A DNA stretch of 64,000 nt from positions 1-64,000 of the forward strand of contig JAKBAI010000004.1 of assembly GCA_021809185.1 (NCBI GenBank). The letters are read 5' to 3'. The first letter of the stretch is position 1. Each line of letters opens with the position of its first letter. The translations under genes were made by a program, and so were the position numbers. This document shows, piece after piece, positions 8,179 to 47,410 of the stretch. The DNA comes from Planctomycetota bacterium. Its GTDB lineage: Bacteria; Planctomycetota; Planctomycetia; Gemmatales; Gemmataceae. The notes beneath the pieces were generated by a model, which saw nothing but the letters and a program-made list of their open reading frames with translations, was not told where the DNA came from and did no database searches.

Positions 8179-9351
8179 ATGAGTTCATTTTTAGATCAGA
8201 TCAATCAGATAATCGATCAAGTCAATAAACTTCCCAACGGTAATACCAAAATCGGATTACTAGAAGAGGGGATTCGATTAGCCGATCTTCACCAAAGGGA
8301 AGATATTGGCTACGAGCTTCGAGAGGAATTGATTGAAGTGAGTACCTTTTGGGGTGCTCCAGAAAAAGCTTTGCTAGCTTTTAGTTGGATTTTGGCCGAA
8401 TATGATCGTAACCCCGACCAATATGATTTGCACCATCTTTTATGGCAGTATAAATGGGTCATCGCTTCTTTGGATGATTTCCCCCATATTAGTTTGCAAC
8501 AGATCGATCAAGCGATGGAAGATATGTCTCGCCGCTATAAAGAAAGTGGATTGGGGCTGCGACCGCTGTATAAAATTGCCTGTGAACACGCTATGACCAG
8601 GAAAGATCGAGAGAAGGTCAAATATTTCCAAAAATTATGGCGATCCGAAAAGATTGATCACGGCAATGATTGCTCCGCCTGTGAGCGTGATTCACAAGTT
8701 TCGTATTATTTATTTGTGAACGATCTCGAACGCGCTTTAAAGGCCGCAGAGCCGATTCTTTCTGGCAAAATGAAATGTGGGGAAGTTCCGCATGTGACTT
8801 TACCAGAATTATTACTCCCACTTTTACGGAAAAAAGAAATCAATTTAGCGGTCGATTATTATCTTTGGGCTGCCAAAATTTTGAATCGTGACCCAGATTT
8901 TATTGCGGAATATGGAAAATTGATGACTTTCCTTGCCTTAACCAGTAATTTCAAAGAAGGGATCAAAATCTTTGAAAAGATGCTCCCCGCAGTCCTAGAA
9001 GCAAAAGCCCTATCGAGACGCTTTACGTTTCAATTAGGAGCTAGTTTATTATTTCATTATTTACAGGATTCTGGAAAAGATTCCATTTCGCTTCGTTTAC
9101 CACAAGAACTAAAATTATCGGGCTCGAAAGGGCTGGATAAAAATGGCACGGAAACCGATAAAGCAAAAAAAATACCTTCTCAGAACGTTCAAATTCAAAG
9201 CTTAATCGATTGGATCGATAACGATCTTCTCCATCTCGCCAAACTATTTGATGAACGGAATGGGACCAATGCCTTTCGAGCGGAAATCGATGAAGCAAAA
9301 AATCTCAAAGATCTTTGTTGCGTTATCCCCCTTAAAAAAGAAGAGGATTGA
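8179..9351 (+). CDS. TPR-like helical protein, paralogue A (Cys type)
   Basis: This 390-aa cytoplasmic protein is the first of four tandem paralogues behind the Hsp90-like gene. It is almost all helical, with antiparallel helix pairs such as REKVKYFQKLW, LERALKAAEPIL, INLAVDYYLWAAKIL and FKEGIKIFEKML, which look TPR-like without the strict TPR consensus. Landmarks shared by all four are the FSW motif (68-70), LLWxYKW (87-93), VPHxTL (203-208), a strongly conserved LALT segment near 252 and a C-terminal FDxRNG (358-362). This copy has C165-x2-C168 and C200, followed by H205. A charged linker at 312-337 separates the last helix pair from the C-terminus. I know no function; a co-chaperone or client-scaffold role is inferred from context only. 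The upstream 14-bp repeats replace a normal ribosome-binding site. Confidence 0.85.
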   Translation: MSSFLDQINQIIDQVNKLPNGNTKIGLLEEGIRLADLHQREDIGYELREELIEVSTFWGAPEKALLAFSWILAEYDRNPDQYDLHHLLWQYKWVIASLDDFPHISLQQIDQAMEDMSRRYKESGLGLRPLYKIACEHAMTRKDREKVKYFQKLWRSEKIDHGNDCSACERDSQVSYYLFVNDLERALKAAEPILSGKMKCGEVPHVTLPELLLPLLRKKEINLAVDYYLWAAKILNRDPDFIAEYGKLMTFLALTSNFKEGIKIFEKMLPAVLEAKALSRRFTFQLGASLLFHYLQDSGKDSISLRLPQELKLSGSKGLDKNGTETDKAKKIPSQNVQIQSLIDWIDNDLLHLAKLFDERNGTNAFRAEIDEAKNLKDLCCVIPLKKEED

Positions 9352-37554: not shown

Positions 37555-38826
37555 ATGCAGGTACAAACGATTGAGAAATGCCGAATATGTGGACAGAACA
37601 ATTTTTACACACTTCTAGATCTGGGAGAACAGGCATTGACCGGTGTATTTCCCAAAAGTGCTCACGACCGGATTGAAGAAGGTCCGCTAGAATTGGTAAA
37701 ATGCGATGAGGGTAAAGGAGGATGCGGGTTAGTTCAATTGCGTCATTCCTATGCTCCCGAACGTATGTACGGGGATACATATGGTTATCGCTCTGGGTTA
37801 AACCGGGCCATGGTTCGTCATTTACAACACCGAATCCAGGAAGTCTGTACCATCGCTCAACCAGCGAACGACGATCTGGTGCTAGATATTGGCAGTAACG
37901 ATGGAACCAGTTTGAGCTTTTATCCCAAAAGCTTTCAGCGTGTTGGGATGGATCCCAGTGGGAAAAAATTCTATCACCATTATCCAGAAAATGTGCCGTT
38001 AATTCCTGAATTCTTCTCCGCAAAAGCTTTTCGTGAACATTTTCCGAAACTCAAGGCCAAAATCGTCACCTCTTTCGCTATGTTTTACGATCTGGATGAC
38101 CCTCTTGGCTTTATGAATGATATTCATAGTATTCTTGCCGATGATGGGGTTTGGGCATTTGAACAGAGCTATTTGCCTGCAATGCTTCGCGCCAATGCCT
38201 ACGATACGATCTGCCATGAACATCTGAGCTATTATGCCATGAAACAGATCCATTGGATGACCGAACGGGCTGACTTGAAAATTATCGATGTCGAAACCAA
38301 TGATACCAACGGCGGTAGTTTCTGTATCACGGTTGCTAAAAAGAACTCTTCGTATCCAGAAGCAATAGCGATATTAGATCGGTTGCTTAAAGAAGAACAG
38401 CAACTAAGTTTGGATTCTTTACGAGGGTATCAGCGCTTCCATGACGAAGTTCTGCATCACCGCAATCAACTTCGCAGTTTTATTGCGGATACTCTATTGC
38501 GAAACAAAACGATTTACGGATATGGGGCTTCGACTAAAGGAAATGTCCTGTTACAGTTTTGCGGTTTGCGTGCTTGGGATCTTCCTGCGATTGCTGAAGT
38601 CAATCCCGATAAATTTGGGTCGTATACCCCCGGATCACAAATTCCTATTCTTTCCGAACAGGATGTCCATGCGAAAAACCCCGATTATTTAATCGTGTTA
38701 CCTTGGCATTTCCGGGAAGAGATCATGCGCCGAGAAAATAACTATCTCGCCAAAGGGGGCCAACTGGTGTTCCCATTACCTCATCTTGATGTTGTTGGCA
38801 GGGTTAGTCTACGAAAATCGGCATAA
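37555..38826 (+). CDS. SAM-dependent sugar C-methyltransferase-like protein
   Basis: The 423-aa protein has the three-part layout of NDP-hexose C-methyltransferases. An N-terminal zinc-binding part (Methyltransf_13-like) has CRICG with a later Cys pair (VKCDEGKGGCGLVQL). The SAM-binding domain has LDIGSNDGTSLSFY (about 110-122) and WAFEQSYLPAML. The C-terminal domain (Methyltransf_14-like) has YGYGASTKGNVLLQF-type glycine motif and PDYLIVLPWHFREEIMRRE. Family members methylate C-3 of nucleotide sugars in deoxysugar or O-antigen routes. The window has no other sugar-nucleotide gene beside it. GGGAGCAGGA precedes the start. Confidence 0.85.
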   Translation: MQVQTIEKCRICGQNNFYTLLDLGEQALTGVFPKSAHDRIEEGPLELVKCDEGKGGCGLVQLRHSYAPERMYGDTYGYRSGLNRAMVRHLQHRIQEVCTIAQPANDDLVLDIGSNDGTSLSFYPKSFQRVGMDPSGKKFYHHYPENVPLIPEFFSAKAFREHFPKLKAKIVTSFAMFYDLDDPLGFMNDIHSILADDGVWAFEQSYLPAMLRANAYDTICHEHLSYYAMKQIHWMTERADLKIIDVETNDTNGGSFCITVAKKNSSYPEAIAILDRLLKEEQQLSLDSLRGYQRFHDEVLHHRNQLRSFIADTLLRNKTIYGYGASTKGNVLLQFCGLRAWDLPAIAEVNPDKFGSYTPGSQIPILSEQDVHAKNPDYLIVLPWHFREEIMRRENNYLAKGGQLVFPLPHLDVVGRVSLRKSA

Positions 38827-38942: not shown

Positions 38943-40037
38943 TTAAGATCGTTTCTTTTTTTCGCTCGAGGTTTCCGAATGGGGTGCGGGTAGTTGCTGC
39001 AAGATTTTTTTGAGAAACAGATGGGCTTGAAAATTCTCCATTTGTCCCTGGAAGGAGGGTAAAATTTGATGGCGCATGATGGGGATCAGTACTTCGCGAA
39101 TATCTTCACTTGTAACATTCAACCGGCCGTACATTAATGCCCTGGCTTTAGCCGCAACGATTAGAGATTTATTGATCGAAGTCGCCCCACCCGAGGCAAT
39201 AACATCCTGAAAGCCTTTCGGGAAATGGGGGTCTCCGGGCCTGGTGGCTCGGATCAGATCGACCGCATAACGGATAAGGTAATCGGGAATAAGAATGTTT
39301 TTGATCAAATCTTGTAACAGTTGCAGCGTAACCAGACTAAGGCGGGGATAATTTGCCGGAGTATTGGGAATGGAACTTAATCCTGTTGCAGATTTGGCAT
39401 ATTGAAATTCTTCTTCTTTGCCGGGAGTGAGTAGTACCGAATTCATGAAAAAACTGATTCGGACCGGGTCGATAATCGACTGGGTGATTTCTGTTTCCAG
39501 AGGATTTAATACCAACAAACTACTCCAGTCTCCTGAATAATCTCGTTTCTTCCCTTCACCTTGAAGATGCTGTTCCGAATTGGTTCCTAAATTGGTCCCT
39601 AAGATCTGCTTCTCTTTAGATGGTTCTGAATTTTTTGTTCGCAAAGAAGAAACAACCCCGAGCTGCAACCCCGGTGGTGCCAGATGGAGGCTTTCGGCGA
39701 TGAGCCAGTGTATTGAACCGAAATCTTTACTGAAATCTTTATGGCTCCATTTCGTCTCGACTGCCCCATCTTTGAGCCAACCTTCAGGACAAAATAAAAC
39801 CGTTTTTGACTGAAACTGAAAAAATTTCTCGAACATGCGCAAAAAATCGCATTCATTTTGACCAACTGGAACCGATAATAAAAGATTTTCTTGACAGAGC
39901 AGGCAAATGATTATTTGATCAATAAGTGCTGCTCGCCCAGGAAACATTCGAGCAATTTCAACCTTCATCTGTTCAAAGTATGAAGCGGTATCACGGATAA
40001 GTTGAGATGCTGCCGATGCTGTTTGAACGGTTGCCAT
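38943..40037 (-). CDS. MoxR-like AAA protein with eroded ATPase motifs
   Basis: The 364-aa protein follows the MoxR AAA+ layout, but the nucleotide motifs are changed. Where a Walker A (GVPGxGKT) is expected it reads SVPVGQNE (55-62), without Lys or Thr. Where Walker B (LADEINRAPP) is expected it reads IAESLHLAPP (113-122), losing the Asp-Glu pair. The sensor-1 region LVLNP aligns with ATQNP and keeps Asn. The C-terminal lid is well preserved (IRYAVDLIRATRPG, AAKARALMYGRLNVTSEDI, MRHQILPSF), but the sensor-2 Arg of GASPRA is absent (GGATSIN). It is therefore probably unable to hydrolyse ATP. There is no DUF58 or VWA partner gene next to it. A Lys/Gln-rich insertion lies at about 136-170. Confidence 0.75.
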   Translation of the reverse strand: MATVQTASAASQLIRDTASYFEQMKVEIARMFPGRAALIDQIIICLLCQENLLLSVPVGQNECDFLRMFEKFFQFQSKTVLFCPEGWLKDGAVETKWSHKDFSKDFGSIHWLIAESLHLAPPGLQLGVVSSLRTKNSEPSKEKQILGTNLGTNSEQHLQGEGKKRDYSGDWSSLLVLNPLETEITQSIIDPVRISFFMNSVLLTPGKEEEFQYAKSATGLSSIPNTPANYPRLSLVTLQLLQDLIKNILIPDYLIRYAVDLIRATRPGDPHFPKGFQDVIASGGATSINKSLIVAAKARALMYGRLNVTSEDIREVLIPIMRHQILPSFQGQMENFQAHLFLKKILQQLPAPHSETSSEKKKRS

Positions 40038-40255
40038 GAAGGATCAACCCTCTCCACTCCCAATAGGAATTTAGCTACAGAATATTCCCAAATGTTCCCA
40101 ATTCCAAAACTAGAATGACTTCAATTATTATTCCTTCTCTTATCTCTATACAGATTCTCAAACAAAGGAAAAGTAAGCATAATTAAAAAAACGGCAAATG
40201 CGAGTCGATTGGGTGACGCCCTTTAGAGTCGAAGAAATTCGATTAAATAACCCTT

Positions 40256-40978
40256 TTAAGAGTGCCAATCAATCCCCACAAATAGATCGTAAGCGGCATG
40301 AGTACCAACAGCAATACCAAAACCACGTAGCCAAAAGACTAAACAAAAATATAAACCAGCGGTAACTCGGAAACTGAAAACATAGGCTTGAAACGGTTCA
40401 CCAAAAGGTCCAAGATGATGTGCCCCCGCAAAGAGCAGAGAAGAGATAATCCCTGAAATCGGAATCGCGAGTAGGGAGGGGATGAACGCAAATCGGAAGA
40501 GAAAAACTAGACCAGCAAACAGTATGAATCGGAACAGAACCTCTTCGTATATTCCTGCCCCGATGTAAGTAATTACCTGTGAAGAAACTTCCTGTGGCAA
40601 AGGGAACGCCGCAGGGATATGAATGCCAAATTTATCCAAAATGAGGGAATAATTTCTGCTAATCGACCATAATCCATAGGAATAAATCAGCGACTCGAGA
40701 GTCATTCCGAAAACCGTGCTGAATGGATGCTGTGGGCGGCTTTCCCAATGCCGCAACGTCCATAAAAATAGAAATGCCAGGAGTAAAGCAGGAGCAGCTA
40801 AGAATTGATGGACACCAACGGTCTCTAGCCCCCAGCGAATCCAAGCATCGGCCCCATTGCGTAATATTGGCGAATCGGTGCGTGAATAGTAGATCACCCC
40901 CCCTTCGTAGAGGAGGATCAGGGGCAATAAAAATAAAAAACAGCACCAAGCGTGCCGCGAAGCGGAGAAATATCCCAT
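40256..40978 (-). CDS. CPBP (Abi/CAAX-type) intramembrane protease family protein
   Basis: The 240-aa protein has six to seven hydrophobic segments and the three family motifs: EEVLFR (E145, E146, R150), FAGAHHLG (H187/H188) and GTHAAYDL (H227). These residues sit in the membrane and form the putative metal-dependent active site. In eukaryotes relatives process CAAX-prenylated proteins; bacterial members process or protect against peptides, and many have no known substrate. It is 218 bp upstream of the MoxR-like gene on the same strand. Confidence 0.88.
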   Translation of the reverse strand: MGYFSASRHAWCCFLFLLPLILLYEGGVIYYSRTDSPILRNGADAWIRWGLETVGVHQFLAAPALLLAFLFLWTLRHWESRPQHPFSTVFGMTLESLIYSYGLWSISRNYSLILDKFGIHIPAAFPLPQEVSSQVITYIGAGIYEEVLFRFILFAGLVFLFRFAFIPSLLAIPISGIISSLLFAGAHHLGPFGEPFQAYVFSFRVTAGLYFCLVFWLRGFGIAVGTHAAYDLFVGIDWHS

Positions 40979-41442: not shown

Positions 41443-43050
41443 TTAATAATAGAGATAGTGCAAATGATCTGGATAAAGATAGTTATTCCTTTCAGGAGAA
41501 CCAATCGTTCTTATGATCAGATCTCGCTCTATTTCTGCTAGATCGACGATAGTGGTCACGGCAACTCGGTTTTTGTTTTCATCGGTCAATAATTGGATAA
41601 CCGGTCGAATCGCGGACCGGAAATGCGATTTCCCATAATGGCTAGCAATCACAATTCCTATCGATCCATTTAATAATTCTACCACGGACCCTATCGGGTA
41701 GAAGGTCAAGTCGACGAGAGTGGGGGTCAATTGTTTATCGAGAATTCCCTGCTCCCCGATCATTAGCGTATCCGTCAATGCGGTGCGGGGGTCGATTGGC
41801 GGACGATAGGGGCGGGCTGAAACCATCGAAACAAAACTATCCACAATCCCAAGTAGTCTAGCAAGTGGGGGGATTTGATCTTCTAGTTTCCCGCTTGGGT
41901 AGCCGGTACCGTCCATGCGCTCATGATGATCAGCGATTGCTGATAGAATTTCTGGGTGATTGAATGCTTTTGCCAGTTTCTCTAATCCCAGCGGAACGTG
42001 ATTCTCGATTGCTCTTTTTTGCTCGATCCTTAATTTGTTATTGGGATGATACCAATTTTCTGGTGCAACTTCCAACATGCCGACATCGTGGAGTAATGAA
42101 GCAAGGATTGCATCGAGAAAGGAAGATTTCCCTATCTGTTTTCGATAGAATAAGCGAGCAACCACACGCGCTACCATTATACTGTGTGCGGCAATCACTC
42201 GTCCTAAAACGGGTACCGATTCTGATACATTCCCACTGGGAACCTCCGCTAAGAACGGGAGCTGAAGCCACCTGAACGGTGAATCATTGCTCTGTTCTTG
42301 AATAATCGTCTCGCAAAGATTTTGCCAGCTCGCCAGTTCAAACTTCTGTTCTTGCATCAGCAAAGCAATCAGATTGGTTAATTGACTGACCTGATCCGAT
42401 TCCTTTGACAATATTTGTAATGCGTTCTCGACACGCTCATGATTGCGCTCAACCGTTTTGAGAACCGATTCGACATGAAGACATCGTTGCACCTGCTCGC
42501 TTGGTGAAGCAGGAAGAGTTGATAGGACGATCGTTGCAATCTGGACCCAGTGCAGGTTATCTTGTTGAAGTTTTAAAATGGGGGAGATATGATCAGTACC
42601 CAGTGGTGCTGATTGCGGATAATGAATCCATGGATGGTTTTGGATCGCTCTTAGTTTTTTTACCCAGGTGTGGGTTTGTTGTAATAAATCACGACTTTGA
42701 TGAGTGCTAAAGGTTGGTGTTTTTGCTGTTGGGAGTTGGTTCTCTGGATTTTCAAAATGGCGGAGAACCAACTGAATTTTTTCTTGTTCCGATTCCGATT
42801 TCTTTAAAGATTCTTCTAATTCGGAAATGGGAGAACTGGGGGGAGAGACCTGAGCGATTCGTGGAAAAGATGGGTGATTTTGCTCTGGATTAAAGGTATT
42901 ACCTGTTCCAGGCTTAGTAGATTTTGAGAGCGAACCGGCTTGTAGTTTTGGCATCGCTTCCAGCTTTTGCCGAAACTCAATAATCTGATTAAGTAGCGAG
43001 CGAGTATCTATGGCCATTTTAGTCGTGTCCGATCGCTTAGTTTTTACCAC
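41443..43050 (-). CDS. HD-GYP domain protein, probable cyclic-di-GMP phosphodiesterase
   Basis: The 535-aa protein has a long N-terminal region (about 1-270) of helical and Pro/Ser-rich sequence with no clear sensor, and an HD-GYP domain from about 280. H289, the HD pair H321-D322 (LLHDVGM), H351, the HH pair H375-H376 and DGTGYP (380-385) are all present, which is the full metal-binding and signature set of c-di-GMP phosphodiesterases. A C-terminal part (about 430-535) resembles a small beta domain (SVVELLNGSIGIVIASHYGK). The start is uncertain: GTG at 43050 gives 535 aa, and the ATG at 43017 removes 11 residues; neither has a good Shine-Dalgarno sequence. Confidence 0.88.
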   Translation of the reverse strand: MVKTKRSDTTKMAIDTRSLLNQIIEFRQKLEAMPKLQAGSLSKSTKPGTGNTFNPEQNHPSFPRIAQVSPPSSPISELEESLKKSESEQEKIQLVLRHFENPENQLPTAKTPTFSTHQSRDLLQQTHTWVKKLRAIQNHPWIHYPQSAPLGTDHISPILKLQQDNLHWVQIATIVLSTLPASPSEQVQRCLHVESVLKTVERNHERVENALQILSKESDQVSQLTNLIALLMQEQKFELASWQNLCETIIQEQSNDSPFRWLQLPFLAEVPSGNVSESVPVLGRVIAAHSIMVARVVARLFYRKQIGKSSFLDAILASLLHDVGMLEVAPENWYHPNNKLRIEQKRAIENHVPLGLEKLAKAFNHPEILSAIADHHERMDGTGYPSGKLEDQIPPLARLLGIVDSFVSMVSARPYRPPIDPRTALTDTLMIGEQGILDKQLTPTLVDLTFYPIGSVVELLNGSIGIVIASHYGKSHFRSAIRPVIQLLTDENKNRVAVTTIVDLAEIERDLIIRTIGSPERNNYLYPDHLHYLYY

Positions 43051-43384: not shown

Positions 43385-46300
43385 TTAGTTAATCCGGTCA
43401 CTTTTTGGTATACGAGAGCGGTTCTTTCTTAACTGGACGATCAACTTCATGGCCTCATCGTAAATATTTTTATCACGTTCTTGTAAGTTGGTTAGTAATT
43501 GTTCTAGTTCCGCTCGCCGTTTGGTTTCAAATAATTTTTTAATGAGACGCAACGAATTCCATTTTAAATTCCCATCCAAGCAACCGCATTCTTCAGGTAA
43601 GAGCAGCTCAAAATAACCATCTTCCGTCGCATAAAGAACTTCATTCCCATCGGACGAAAAGATTGCACTTTCGATATCTTGCTTGCCCGTATTAATAGCG
43701 ATTAATTGTTTATTTTTTTCTAGATCCCAGAGCAGGAGCTGGTTTCCCCGATAAAGAATCGCTCGTTGGGAGGTAACGGTAAAGCCCTCCGCTTGGACTA
43801 AACCGGGAAGTGCTATCCTGTTTGATTGATTGTTGTGTATTTCTTGTAAGAACGATTGTTGATTATCTTGAATAATGAAGTATCGCTCATCGGGGGTGAT
43901 GCCGGCCCAATTGCCCTGGAAGAGTGGAGGGCTGACCTGAACGATTTTCCCAGTCTTACAATCGATTCGCACAATTTCCCAAGACTTGGACCCGAACAGT
44001 AATTCAAATTGATCCGATTGGTGTAATCGAGAAACGAAGAGGGATTTCCCATCTGCAGAAAAGTAACATCGGCTGGCAAAGAATGGACTTATTAAAGGAA
44101 CGGAAATCGCCTTCGATTTATTCGGGTTGGATAGATCGATTAAAATCACTTTTTGATCCGTCACAGCTGCCGCATACGTTTTTTTATCATGGAAGGCTAG
44201 GTCATGAATAATATAACCCATCGAACCTTTGCGCGGGATCGCTATCTGTTGCCATTTACTACCCGGAACAAGAGAAATCCATTGTAAGTCAAAACGCCAA
44301 TTCCAAGAAATCGTCGCTAAAGCAAGCGCATTGCCGTTATCGATCACTTTAGTAGCTCGCGAGATGATCAAGGCAGAGTTGAGGGCCGAAGAAAGATCGA
44401 TCGATTCCCATTTTTGTTGGAACTGTTTGACAACCGGATGAGCGCCACGGATGATGACCACTGGTTTTCGATCGGATTGTAAGTAAATATCGCGATCGTT
44501 GGGGGGATGAGGAGAGGAAGGTAGTGGGATGGATGTAAGCTCTTTTTTTTGTAAAGAATAGATACCTAAGCAAGCTTCTTCCATAAACATAACTGTTTGT
44601 TGGTCTTGATTCCATAAGAACGGTTGGACCTTTTGCGTAATCAAAGGCACCGTTTGTTGTTTATTCAATTCTGGGAGATTCCAGATTTCCAGTTTCCCTT
44701 TAACCAATCGGGCCAATCGGGTTTGATCGTTGGAGACAACAAGGGGAGAACCGTTGTTGTTGATTGGAGTAGTGGAAACCAATTCTCCAATTTTGGTTTG
44801 ACTGATCGTATCCCAGATCGTCAACCGTTTCGCTTCTTCAATGATGAGCCACTCGCTACGATTGGCCAGAGTGGCATTAAGAATCGTGAAAGAACTGGAA
44901 TCGATCGCTTCGCGATTGTCCCAGGTGGAGGGATTTATTTTTTTGCGATTTTGAATCGGTCGTATTTGATATTGGTCACTTTTCGGGAATCTCAATAAAG
45001 ACCGCTGGAACGAATGATTCGTAACATCGATTTGCCAAACTTCTAATTGACCATCCCAAAAAATCAGGAATTCATTCGGTTTGCGATATTTGCCGATAAT
45101 TTTTGGCTGTTTAAAGCTCATTTGGAAGCGCAAAGGTAGATGCCAATCCCAGTTATTTTGAGCAATATTCCAGATGCCCAGATCGATACTACTTAGAATC
45201 AAAAGTTGATGGGGAGAGATCCAGAGACGATTCATTTGGCCGCGCAGATAATTGACTGAGGGCATGTTAGGATCTTTTTTAAGGAAGTAAGGGGTCGTGG
45301 AGGTCAACCATCTCGGTAGGTCATCCTGAGTCGGTAAGCTGATTCTTTGGGTAATTTCCTTTGGATTTTCTAAACGATGAATGGTAGTCAACCCTTTATG
45401 AAAATAACCTATTGCGAGCTGAGTTTGATCAGGAGAAAAATGTAAATCCATGATAATACCATGCGGGGACTTCCAGGAGGTGATCTTTTCCCAAGATTTG
45501 GCATCGTATAAAGTTATCAGATCATCTTCGGCAATTGCTGCTATGCGCGAGTCCTTGGATAGTGCACAAGCAAAATTCTTTGCATCGGCTTTTTGCAAAG
45601 GAAGCCCTAATTCGCGCGAAAAGCGGCGGTACAGATTCCAGATGCGAAACTCGGCTCGATGATCATCAAGCTCTGATTGGGTCAAATAGGATTGCCACCA
45701 AGCCTCTTCTGCTTGGGCTAGTTCTTTTTGTTCATCCAGTAAATCGCCGCGAAGCAAGGTTGTTTCCCAAAACTCCTTTTGGATCAATTTGCGGCTATTA
45801 AGCAATTCTTCGGCTTGTTTTTCCGCGCGGTCGCGTTGATCATTCGCCCGTTTTCGTTCGGTTTCCGCCCGTTTTCGCTCTGCTTCGGCAATGGCCCGTT
45901 CCCCTTCGGCCACTGCTTTTTCATTCTCCGCTTGTTGCAAAGCCAATTCTTGAGCTTCACGCGCTTGATTGGTCAACCACCATTCATAGGAAATGACCCA
46001 ATAAGAACTTATAAAAAGAATCAAACAGGCTAACGATAATATGGCGGTGGTCGGGTGTCTTCTGGACCATTTCATAACACGTTCAAAAGGGGTAATCGAA
46101 CGCGCCTGAATTGGCTCTCGCCGTAACCACCGTTCCAGATCTTCTGCAAAGGAATTGGCCGAGGAATAGCGCCTTTCTGGCTCTTTTTCGAGGCATTTCA
46201 GAGTGATTACTGCTAAGTCGTGATCAATTTTAGGGTTGAATTTTTGTGGCGATTGCGGCTCCGAATTCTGTACTTGATCCAGAATATTAAAAATGTTCTC

Positions 46301-47410
46301 CCCTTCAAACGGGGGCTTTCCTGTCAATAATTCATAAAAGACCGCTCCAAGAGAATATACATCGACCGAAGTGGTGATGAATTTATCGGCACGTGCCTGT
46401 TCTGGGGACATATAAGCAGGGGTGCCAACTACCATCCCTGAATTGTTTGCTTCGGAATATTTCTCTTCACTCGAAAATCGTTTCGCCAGCCCAAAATCGG
46501 TTATAATCGGTTTGTATTGTGTTTTCGAGCCTTCTTTAGCCCTCTGCTCGGGGATCCTCTCGATCGAATCCAGAGTAGTTCGTTTTGAACTGGAGCCTGC
46601 CGAAGGGGGATCTAAAAGAATATTCCCTGGTTTAATATCCCGGTGTAAAATGCCATGAAGATGAGCATAATGTACCGCTTTCGCGAGCTGAATCATCAGA
46701 TGAACACTTGCATAAGGGTCTCCAGCAAAATCTGAAATAGAGGAACTCAATGCTCCCCCTTCGACAAGTTTCATACTCAGAAACGGAACCCCATATAACT
46801 CCCCAATTTCATAGATGGGAACAATATTAGGGTGATCCAGAATAGCCACTGCCGCCGCTTCCGCTCGGAACTTTTCTTTAGCCTGATCACTAACAAATGA
46901 ACTACTGATCAGTGTTTTAATAGCAACCTGCCGATTTAATTTAATCTGGTTTGCTCTAAAAACGACCCCCATTCCCCCGCGCCCAATTTCTTCCAATAGC
47001 TCGTAATCGGTTGAATGAAAAGGGGATCGGTGGGGATTATCAATATTTTGATTAGGACAAAACTCACCAAAGGATTTCAGGGAAGGCTTGATTCCCATTT
47101 GCAGAGATTTTTCCTCGATTGGTTGCTTCAGTTCAACCGTTGGTTGAGTGCCGAAATGAGGATTCTCTTGAAAATTCAACTCAGCTCTGACTGAATTTGG
47201 TTCCGCTTGAGTGTCTTCTTGGGTCGGATTCTGGGTAGTAATTTCCTCTTGGGTTATCCCTTCGATCCGATCCGAATTATTGGTATGCCCGTTTTCTTTC
47301 TTGAGCTTTGCAGCAAGATCGGAACTATCAATGGTCTGATGATCAGGGATATTGCCAAGCAAGGGATGTTTTTCTCGCATCAAATATGGCTCCATCTCCA
47401 TGGATAGCAA
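43385..47410 (-). CDS. Membrane Ser/Thr protein kinase with WD40-like C-terminal region
   Basis: Up to 1341 aa. After a 135-residue Gln/Thr/Glu-rich leader comes a PknB-type kinase domain: GRGGMGVV (143-150), K165, HRDIKPGN (256-263), DFG (305-307) and GTPAYMSPEQ (329-338), all intact. A 30-residue insertion lies between HRD and DFG. One transmembrane segment follows at about 455-478, then a coiled coil of A/E/R repeats (480-545). The rest is a long beta-propeller-like region (for example ALSKDSRIAAIAEDDLITLYDAKSW, AIFSSDGNEVLYATEDG). Propeller-bearing kinases of this kind are abundant in planctomycetes. The first codon here would be TTG; ATGs follow at 47401, 47395 and 47380, and the last has GGAG nine bases upstream and may be the real start. 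Confidence 0.92.
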   Translation of the reverse strand: MLSMEMEPYLMREKHPLLGNIPDHQTIDSSDLAAKLKKENGHTNNSDRIEGITQEEITTQNPTQEDTQAEPNSVRAELNFQENPHFGTQPTVELKQPIEEKSLQMGIKPSLKSFGEFCPNQNIDNPHRSPFHSTDYELLEEIGRGGMGVVFRANQIKLNRQVAIKTLISSSFVSDQAKEKFRAEAAAVAILDHPNIVPIYEIGELYGVPFLSMKLVEGGALSSSISDFAGDPYASVHLMIQLAKAVHYAHLHGILHRDIKPGNILLDPPSAGSSSKRTTLDSIERIPEQRAKEGSKTQYKPIITDFGLAKRFSSEEKYSEANNSGMVVGTPAYMSPEQARADKFITTSVDVYSLGAVFYELLTGKPPFEGENIFNILDQVQNSEPQSPQKFNPKIDHDLAVITLKCLEKEPERRYSSANSFAEDLERWLRREPIQARSITPFERVMKWSRRHPTTAILSLACLILFISSYWVISYEWWLTNQAREAQELALQQAENEKAVAEGERAIAEAERKRAETERKRANDQRDRAEKQAEELLNSRKLIQKEFWETTLLRGDLLDEQKELAQAEEAWWQSYLTQSELDDHRAEFRIWNLYRRFSRELGLPLQKADAKNFACALSKDSRIAAIAEDDLITLYDAKSWEKITSWKSPHGIIMDLHFSPDQTQLAIGYFHKGLTTIHRLENPKEITQRISLPTQDDLPRWLTSTTPYFLKKDPNMPSVNYLRGQMNRLWISPHQLLILSSIDLGIWNIAQNNWDWHLPLRFQMSFKQPKIIGKYRKPNEFLIFWDGQLEVWQIDVTNHSFQRSLLRFPKSDQYQIRPIQNRKKINPSTWDNREAIDSSSFTILNATLANRSEWLIIEEAKRLTIWDTISQTKIGELVSTTPINNNGSPLVVSNDQTRLARLVKGKLEIWNLPELNKQQTVPLITQKVQPFLWNQDQQTVMFMEEACLGIYSLQKKELTSIPLPSSPHPPNDRDIYLQSDRKPVVIIRGAHPVVKQFQQKWESIDLSSALNSALIISRATKVIDNGNALALATISWNWRFDLQWISLVPGSKWQQIAIPRKGSMGYIIHDLAFHDKKTYAAAVTDQKVILIDLSNPNKSKAISVPLISPFFASRCYFSADGKSLFVSRLHQSDQFELLFGSKSWEIVRIDCKTGKIVQVSPPLFQGNWAGITPDERYFIIQDNQQSFLQEIHNNQSNRIALPGLVQAEGFTVTSQRAILYRGNQLLLWDLEKNKQLIAINTGKQDIESAIFSSDGNEVLYATEDGYFELLLPEECGCLDGNLKWNSLRLIKKLFETKRRAELEQLLTNLQERDKNIYDEAMKLIVQLRKNRSRIPKSDRIN

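Follow-up and report, generated by a model that had tools for sequence, protein, structure and literature searches.

The locus at 38943..40037 on the minus strand of the DNA stretch that we analysed (64,000 nucleotides, hereafter the window) raises the question of whether a gene for a MoxR-like AAA+ protein that has lost its ATPase site is kept as something other than an enzyme or is decaying. The gene starts with ATG, ends with TAA and keeps all 364 codons open with zero internal stops; the coordinates and the unbroken 364-aa frame given in the initial annotation are thus exact. The source genome, an assembly of 407 contigs, totals 5,466,582 bases at a completeness of 94.91%. Upstream of the gene, a gap of 218 bases (40038..40255, minus strand) contains a run of purines, GGAGAGG, close to the start codon. 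A promoter scan of the region detected no site resembling sigma-70 on the minus strand, and fewer such sites overall than in shuffles, so that the scan says little about a promoter.

Residues of the ATPase site

The encoded protein consists of a degenerate AAA+ core (39333..40037, minus strand; residues 1-235), which reads SVPVGQNEC at the Walker A position and IAESLHL at the Walker B position, and a conserved lid or helical subdomain (38946..39332, minus strand; residues 236-364). The latter is matched by Pfam AAA_lid_2 at residues 292-335 (E 6.6e-8, 32.6 bits, cut-off 22.7) and by a lid profile at E 3e-32 (best shuffle 0.14), in agreement with the MoxR lid that had been recognised initially. 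In the core, nothing exceeded the Pfam cut-offs, and this includes AAA_3, for which no match was obtained; NCBIfam yielded no matches for the protein. The bpMoxR family of Pfam reached E 0.025 and 14.1 bits, under its cut-off of 27. This weak likeness recalls the MoxR-vWA-beta-propeller systems, from which the locus differs in having neither a vWA nor a propeller partner adjacent to it.

The protein was aligned with 87 other MoxR sequences from its own genome and from relatives, of which one is partial and one was joined from two contigs, while the fragment L030 was left out. At the Walker A position the Lys is replaced by Glu and the Thr by Cys, and the Walker B Asp-Glu pair is replaced by Glu-Ser, so that the loss of both motifs, previously read from the sequence, is borne out. 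The same is true for the sensor-2 Arg, which is Ser here and Arg in 87 of the 87 other sequences. To judge from the alignment, the loss of residues for ATP binding and hydrolysis clearly exceeds the earlier description: the arginine finger has likewise become Ser, and the Asn and Arg that follow the Walker B Asp-Glu are absent as well, with the sensor-1 Asn being retained as in 87/87 other rows. Among these rows, 87/87 agree at the Walker B Asp and Glu, at the Asn and Arg that come next, and at the arginine finger and sensor-2 positions. Of the Walker A residues, Lys occurs in 85/87, with Arg in one row and a gap in another, and Thr in 86/87, with a gap in one row. ATP binding through the usual MoxR site is, on these grounds, very unlikely. 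Sequencing error was considered as the cause of the motif loss and rejected, since substitutions and in-frame indels are scattered over the whole core.

Two of these length differences stand out in comparison with the MoxR genes that we refer to as group A, which are defined by a match to the copy in genome G074 at E <= 1e-150, a threshold that fragments at contig ends may miss. Compared with 16 group-A sequences, the protein is 8 residues shorter between strand 2 and Walker B. The shortening would fall in the region of the helix-2 insert, a feature of the MoxR AAA+ ATPase core described in PMC7159879, and the structure model is unsure there. Furthermore, an insertion of 21 residues relative to group A (39576..39638, minus strand; residues 134-154), which contains a repeated LGTN, precedes the sensor-1 strand in the alignment. 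The protein therefore resembles group A in its near full-length homology, its lid subdomain and its sensor-1 Asn, but departs from it in these indels, in the absence of the Walker A/B residues, arginine finger and sensor 2, and in lacking an adjacent DUF58 gene.

Degenerate AAA+ modules are already known in several machines, ChlD of magnesium chelatase and an FtsH-type protein of MoxR-vWA systems among them. The latter has one AAA+ domain that lacks the P-loop and Walker B, according to PMC7159879, but it belongs to a different AAA+ family from MoxR. Within the MoxR subfamily proper, no member without an ATPase site was found among the open-licence papers listed by the searches.

Whole-genome searches with the protein itself, a better test than the pattern scans described below, found no orthologue sharing the loss in three overlapping sets: 95 genomes of the family, 397 of the class and 392 of the phylum. 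For the family, motifs were examined in the best 29 non-self matches (L017-L045), down to approximately 104.8 bits, so that a degenerate copy with a lower score would have escaped notice; for class and phylum, where motifs were likewise read in the best-scoring matches, matches at E <= 1e-30 were listed, with five candidates per genome scored in the rows listed. One match outside the family, in G358, reached 108 bits and lies outside the motif check. Peptide patterns derived from the MoxR-like protein gave no match in a pattern scan of contigs. A second scan, based on an alignment of group-A sequences, retained 80 MoxR loci, and both Walker motifs were present by a loose pattern in 76 of the 77 loci checked, although its patterns come from the canonical core and are therefore blind to copies that share the loss; the remaining match, L240, is truncated and covers the later portion of the protein. 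The observation of a degenerate yet intact MoxR gene is confirmed, and one genome shows it.

Divergence of core and lid

Profile comparison indicates that the homology of the degenerate core to the MoxR core is real: residues 1-235 alone match a group-A core profile at E 6.1e-9, compared with E 0.075 for the best of 999 shuffles. The two parts of the protein differ in how far they preserve the columns conserved in group A: the core retains 27 of 119, and the lid retains 24 of 53 (Fisher p 0.004). This is opposite to the canonical gradient, as mean retention in 63 canonical non-A rows (one partial row was dropped) is 0.78 for the core, with a minimum of 0.60, and 0.62 for the lid. A marginally reversed gradient was seen in 2 of these 63 rows, and 9 of the 63 retain less of the lid than the MoxR-like protein does. 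We therefore read the ATPase core as having been let go and the lid as having been held. The lid identity of the protein is tied, at 0.38 to group-A rows and 0.38 to group-B rows, and by itself does not favour group A.

A structure model computed with 58 canonical relatives as the alignment shows a MoxR fold with a mean pLDDT of 75.9. Values were 94-98 at residues 241-350 and roughly 47-92 over the core (in blocks of ten), falling under 50 at residues 136-168. A single-sequence control failed (pLDDT 34.1), so the MoxR fold of the core is a prediction that draws on the canonical sequences in the alignment. The best fold match of the alignment-based model was CHU_0153, a putative ATPase (PDB 2r44; Z 29.8, rmsd 3.1, 308 aligned, 18% identity), which is also the nearest solved structure by sequence (E 1.6e-7), followed by RavA (3nbx; Z 23.9, rmsd 4.0, 284 aligned, 14% identity), according to its entry title an ATPase solved with ADP.

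Ancestry and genomic context

Group-A members show 70-83% identity, apart from the MoxR-like query itself. They occur as one match per genome in 36 of the 95 family genomes, and 59 of the 95, including the source genome, are without a match. The source assembly, 94.9% complete, contains no match at E <= 1e-150, and a canonical A gene could sit in its missing part. The best non-self matches of the MoxR-like protein in the 95 family genomes are group-A genes, mostly at 25-28% identity near full length, with partial matches to the lid of up to 34% identity.

In a MoxR tree of 88 rows, the degenerate protein groups with 23 group-A rows (SH-aLRT 99), and in a more careful tree of 51 rows, from which 37 of the 88 had been omitted (mostly distant clades and near duplicates), it groups with 18 group-A rows (bootstrap/SH-aLRT 100/99). 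An AU test rejected placement with the C203/C391 clade (p-AU 0.000255), a test that was picked after the tree had been seen and that covers this one rival clade. The end branch of the protein, at approximately 10 changes per column, is at the limit of what trees place, and because of this extreme length we regard the group-A placement as a reasoned best guess. All eight orthodox MoxR rows of the source genome fall in non-A clades. In the 88-row tree, five of these rows sit next to their G071 counterpart, which makes G071 the nearest relative among the MoxR sets compared. The group-A gene of G071 has normal motifs. The degenerate protein shares 7 of 47 private residues with it, compared with 0 to 0.20 in other rows, a value not clearly above the others as a sign of a sister relation.

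Most simply, the degenerate gene would be its own lineage's group-A gene, stripped of ATPase site and operon, a reading that calls for caution given the very long branch. That same branch could also suit an additional, divergent paralogue or a gene imported from elsewhere, as could the position of the gene outside the group-A neighbourhood and its patchy methyltransferase neighbour (matches in 38/95 genomes, most at ~30% identity). Yet the trees and the AU test favour group A, the top matches other than the protein itself are group-A genes from its own family, the 397 class genomes contain no better match than these, and the 392 phylum genomes contain no other match at E <= 1e-30. We consider a non-orthologous origin improbable.

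The initial annotation had named orthologues with normal Walker motifs in close relatives as something that would refute its reading. Group-A orthologues with normal motifs do exist, but in other genera and not in close relatives, the source genome being the sole member of its genus among the 95 family genomes; this places the loss in its own lineage and does not prove decay.

The absence of an adjacent DUF58/VWA partner, another point of the initial annotation, agrees with the domain matches of the neighbouring genes, which encode a CAAX protease, an HD-domain protein and a methyltransferase. In relatives, group-A MoxR genes adjoin DUF58 in five cases (G071, G074, G004, G033 and G061), and these group-A-linked DUF58 proteins form their own clade in a DUF58 tree (5 rows, 100/99). 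The source genome's own five full-length DUF58 proteins all lie outside this clade, in a tree that omitted two shorter own-genome matches on contigs C345 and C337. A BatA match follows the group-A DUF58 in G074 and G061; next to the G071 group-A gene, DUF58 is present and no BatA match was found. No DUF58 was found in the stretches fetched around the canonical group-A genes of three further relatives (G094, G001 and G005; L079, L080 and L082), with the contig of G005 ending approximately 1.1 kb after the gene. With no BatA match in G071 and DUF58 not found in these three, erosion of the group-A operon seems to have occurred in more than one lineage, and the degenerate gene looks like the furthest case seen. 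In G005, a gene that we labelled carrier-protein-like from reading its sequence follows the group-A MoxR.

Agreement of the argB-IspH part of the contig with G071 indicates that the contig belongs to the source lineage. The CAAX protease gene (Rce1-like; 40256..40978, minus strand) has no MoxR-like match nearby in the eight relatives examined, and the HD-domain gene (41443..43050, minus strand) adjoins the CAAX protease gene in five of these eight. An ancestral operon with the CAAX protease was therefore rejected, as 8 of 8 CAAX stretches from relatives lack a MoxR-like match at E 1e-4. Adjoining the HD gene, the stretch at 43385-47410 encodes a large protein that has a kinase domain as well as matches of beta-propeller type. 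On the other side, the C-methyltransferase gene (37555..38826, plus strand) is patchy in the family: any match was found in 38/95 genomes, and an identity of at least 50% in 4, the source genome included. The identities are 59, 51 and 50% in three genomes and ~30% or less elsewhere, and this gene is perhaps mobile.

Retention, decay and possible function

Whether the gene is kept was addressed by a simulation of neutral decay, using substitutions only under a simple model of our own and starting from the G071 group-A gene and from the C314 gene of the source genome. By the time amino-acid identity had fallen to 26%, each of the 200 runs had acquired 6 or more stops; the MoxR-like frame is open at ~26% identity to its nearest kin. 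Furthermore, the codon preference of the gene is 0.071 per codon, compared with a mean of 0.058 (sd 0.027) for 30 other genes of the window; the other frames of its strand score -0.042 and -0.043, and those of the opposite strand 0.028, -0.010 and -0.020. Judged by its reading frame and codon usage, the gene is probably kept as a non-enzyme.

The initial annotation had gone further in describing a kept pseudo-ATPase and not a decaying gene. The open frame at ~26% identity and the native codon preference support this claim indirectly, and recent decay is a real rival. Under slow decay, constraint would have been relaxed or would recently have gone, and the frame would merely not yet have broken. 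Several observations fit: an A-type DUF58 was not found in the source genome; 59 of the 95 family genomes, the source genome among them, are without a group-A match at the threshold (contig-end fragments may count as absent); and the G071 copy, with DUF58 but no BatA match beside it, has the longest branch among the other group-A rows (0.43). However, full neutrality over the whole divergence would give stops, as it did in every simulated run, codon usage is normal, and the lid is plainly still that of a MoxR. We rate slow decay as a serious but rather unlikely explanation.

We favour, at roughly even chances, a reading in which the gene is its own lineage's group-A MoxR copy that has lost both the DUF58 operon and the ATPase site but has been retained as a non-ATPase, serving as a passive adaptor through its lid. 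A group-A MoxR gene would have lost operon and ATPase site in this lineage, leaving a protein without MoxR-type ATP binding and presumably unable to drive a ring. Its C-terminal helical lid subdomain may then act as a passive adaptor or scaffold that holds a former MoxR client or partner without remodelling it. We think that a passive adaptor acting via the lid is likeliest and that membership of mixed rings is less likely, with slow decay as a real rival.

As a subunit of mixed rings, the protein would be non-catalytic and would join and tune hexamers of orthodox MoxR, by analogy with ChlD. ChlD has further domains, including a C-terminal VWA; the MoxR-like protein ends 29 residues past its AAA_lid_2 match and has no VWA match in Pfam. 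Both are AAA+ modules of the same broad clade (PMC7159879), and ChlD is not an active ATPase. A precedent for mixed rings is provided by magnesium chelatase, in which the AAA+ domain of ChlI is active and that of ChlD is inactive, with an allosteric role (PMC3789969). The search suggested in the initial annotation for a complete MoxR elsewhere in the genome was successful, with eight orthodox genes scoring >200 bits for the AAA_3 core, and for five of these DUF58 was matched on the contig itself or on the one that probably continues it, so that mixed hexamers could form. On the other hand, the protein has lost its arginine finger and its sensor 2, the ring-face core is the least conserved part of the protein, and the stretch before Walker B is shortened. 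Moreover, the ChlD site is inferred in PMC3789969 to bind nucleotide and to need its Walker A Lys, but this Lys is absent here, where a single module without such a site is encoded. We consider a mixed-ring subunit unlikely and retain the passive adaptor as the preferred reading.

Tentatively, the locus may represent a MoxR chaperone that has turned into a dedicated non-ATPase in one lineage while still recognising clients or joining orthodox MoxR rings, and, as part of the same joint reading, a MoxR counterpart of the inactive subunits in magnesium chelatase and other AAA+ machines. If it is kept by selection, this case, which rests on a single genome, would separate MoxR client recognition (the lid side) from client movement (the core).

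Among the other MoxR genes of the source genome, one orthodox copy is apparently split by a contig break between C203 (17531-18324, plus strand) and C391 (about 9048-9296, minus strand). The two ends share no overlap and their join is inferred from homology; a DUF58 gene lies downstream on C391. Two further DUF58 genes of this genome, at C27:23141-23749 and C117:5519-6112, have counterparts in the complete G071 genome that lie >90 kb from any listed MoxR, and these are possible partners in trans.
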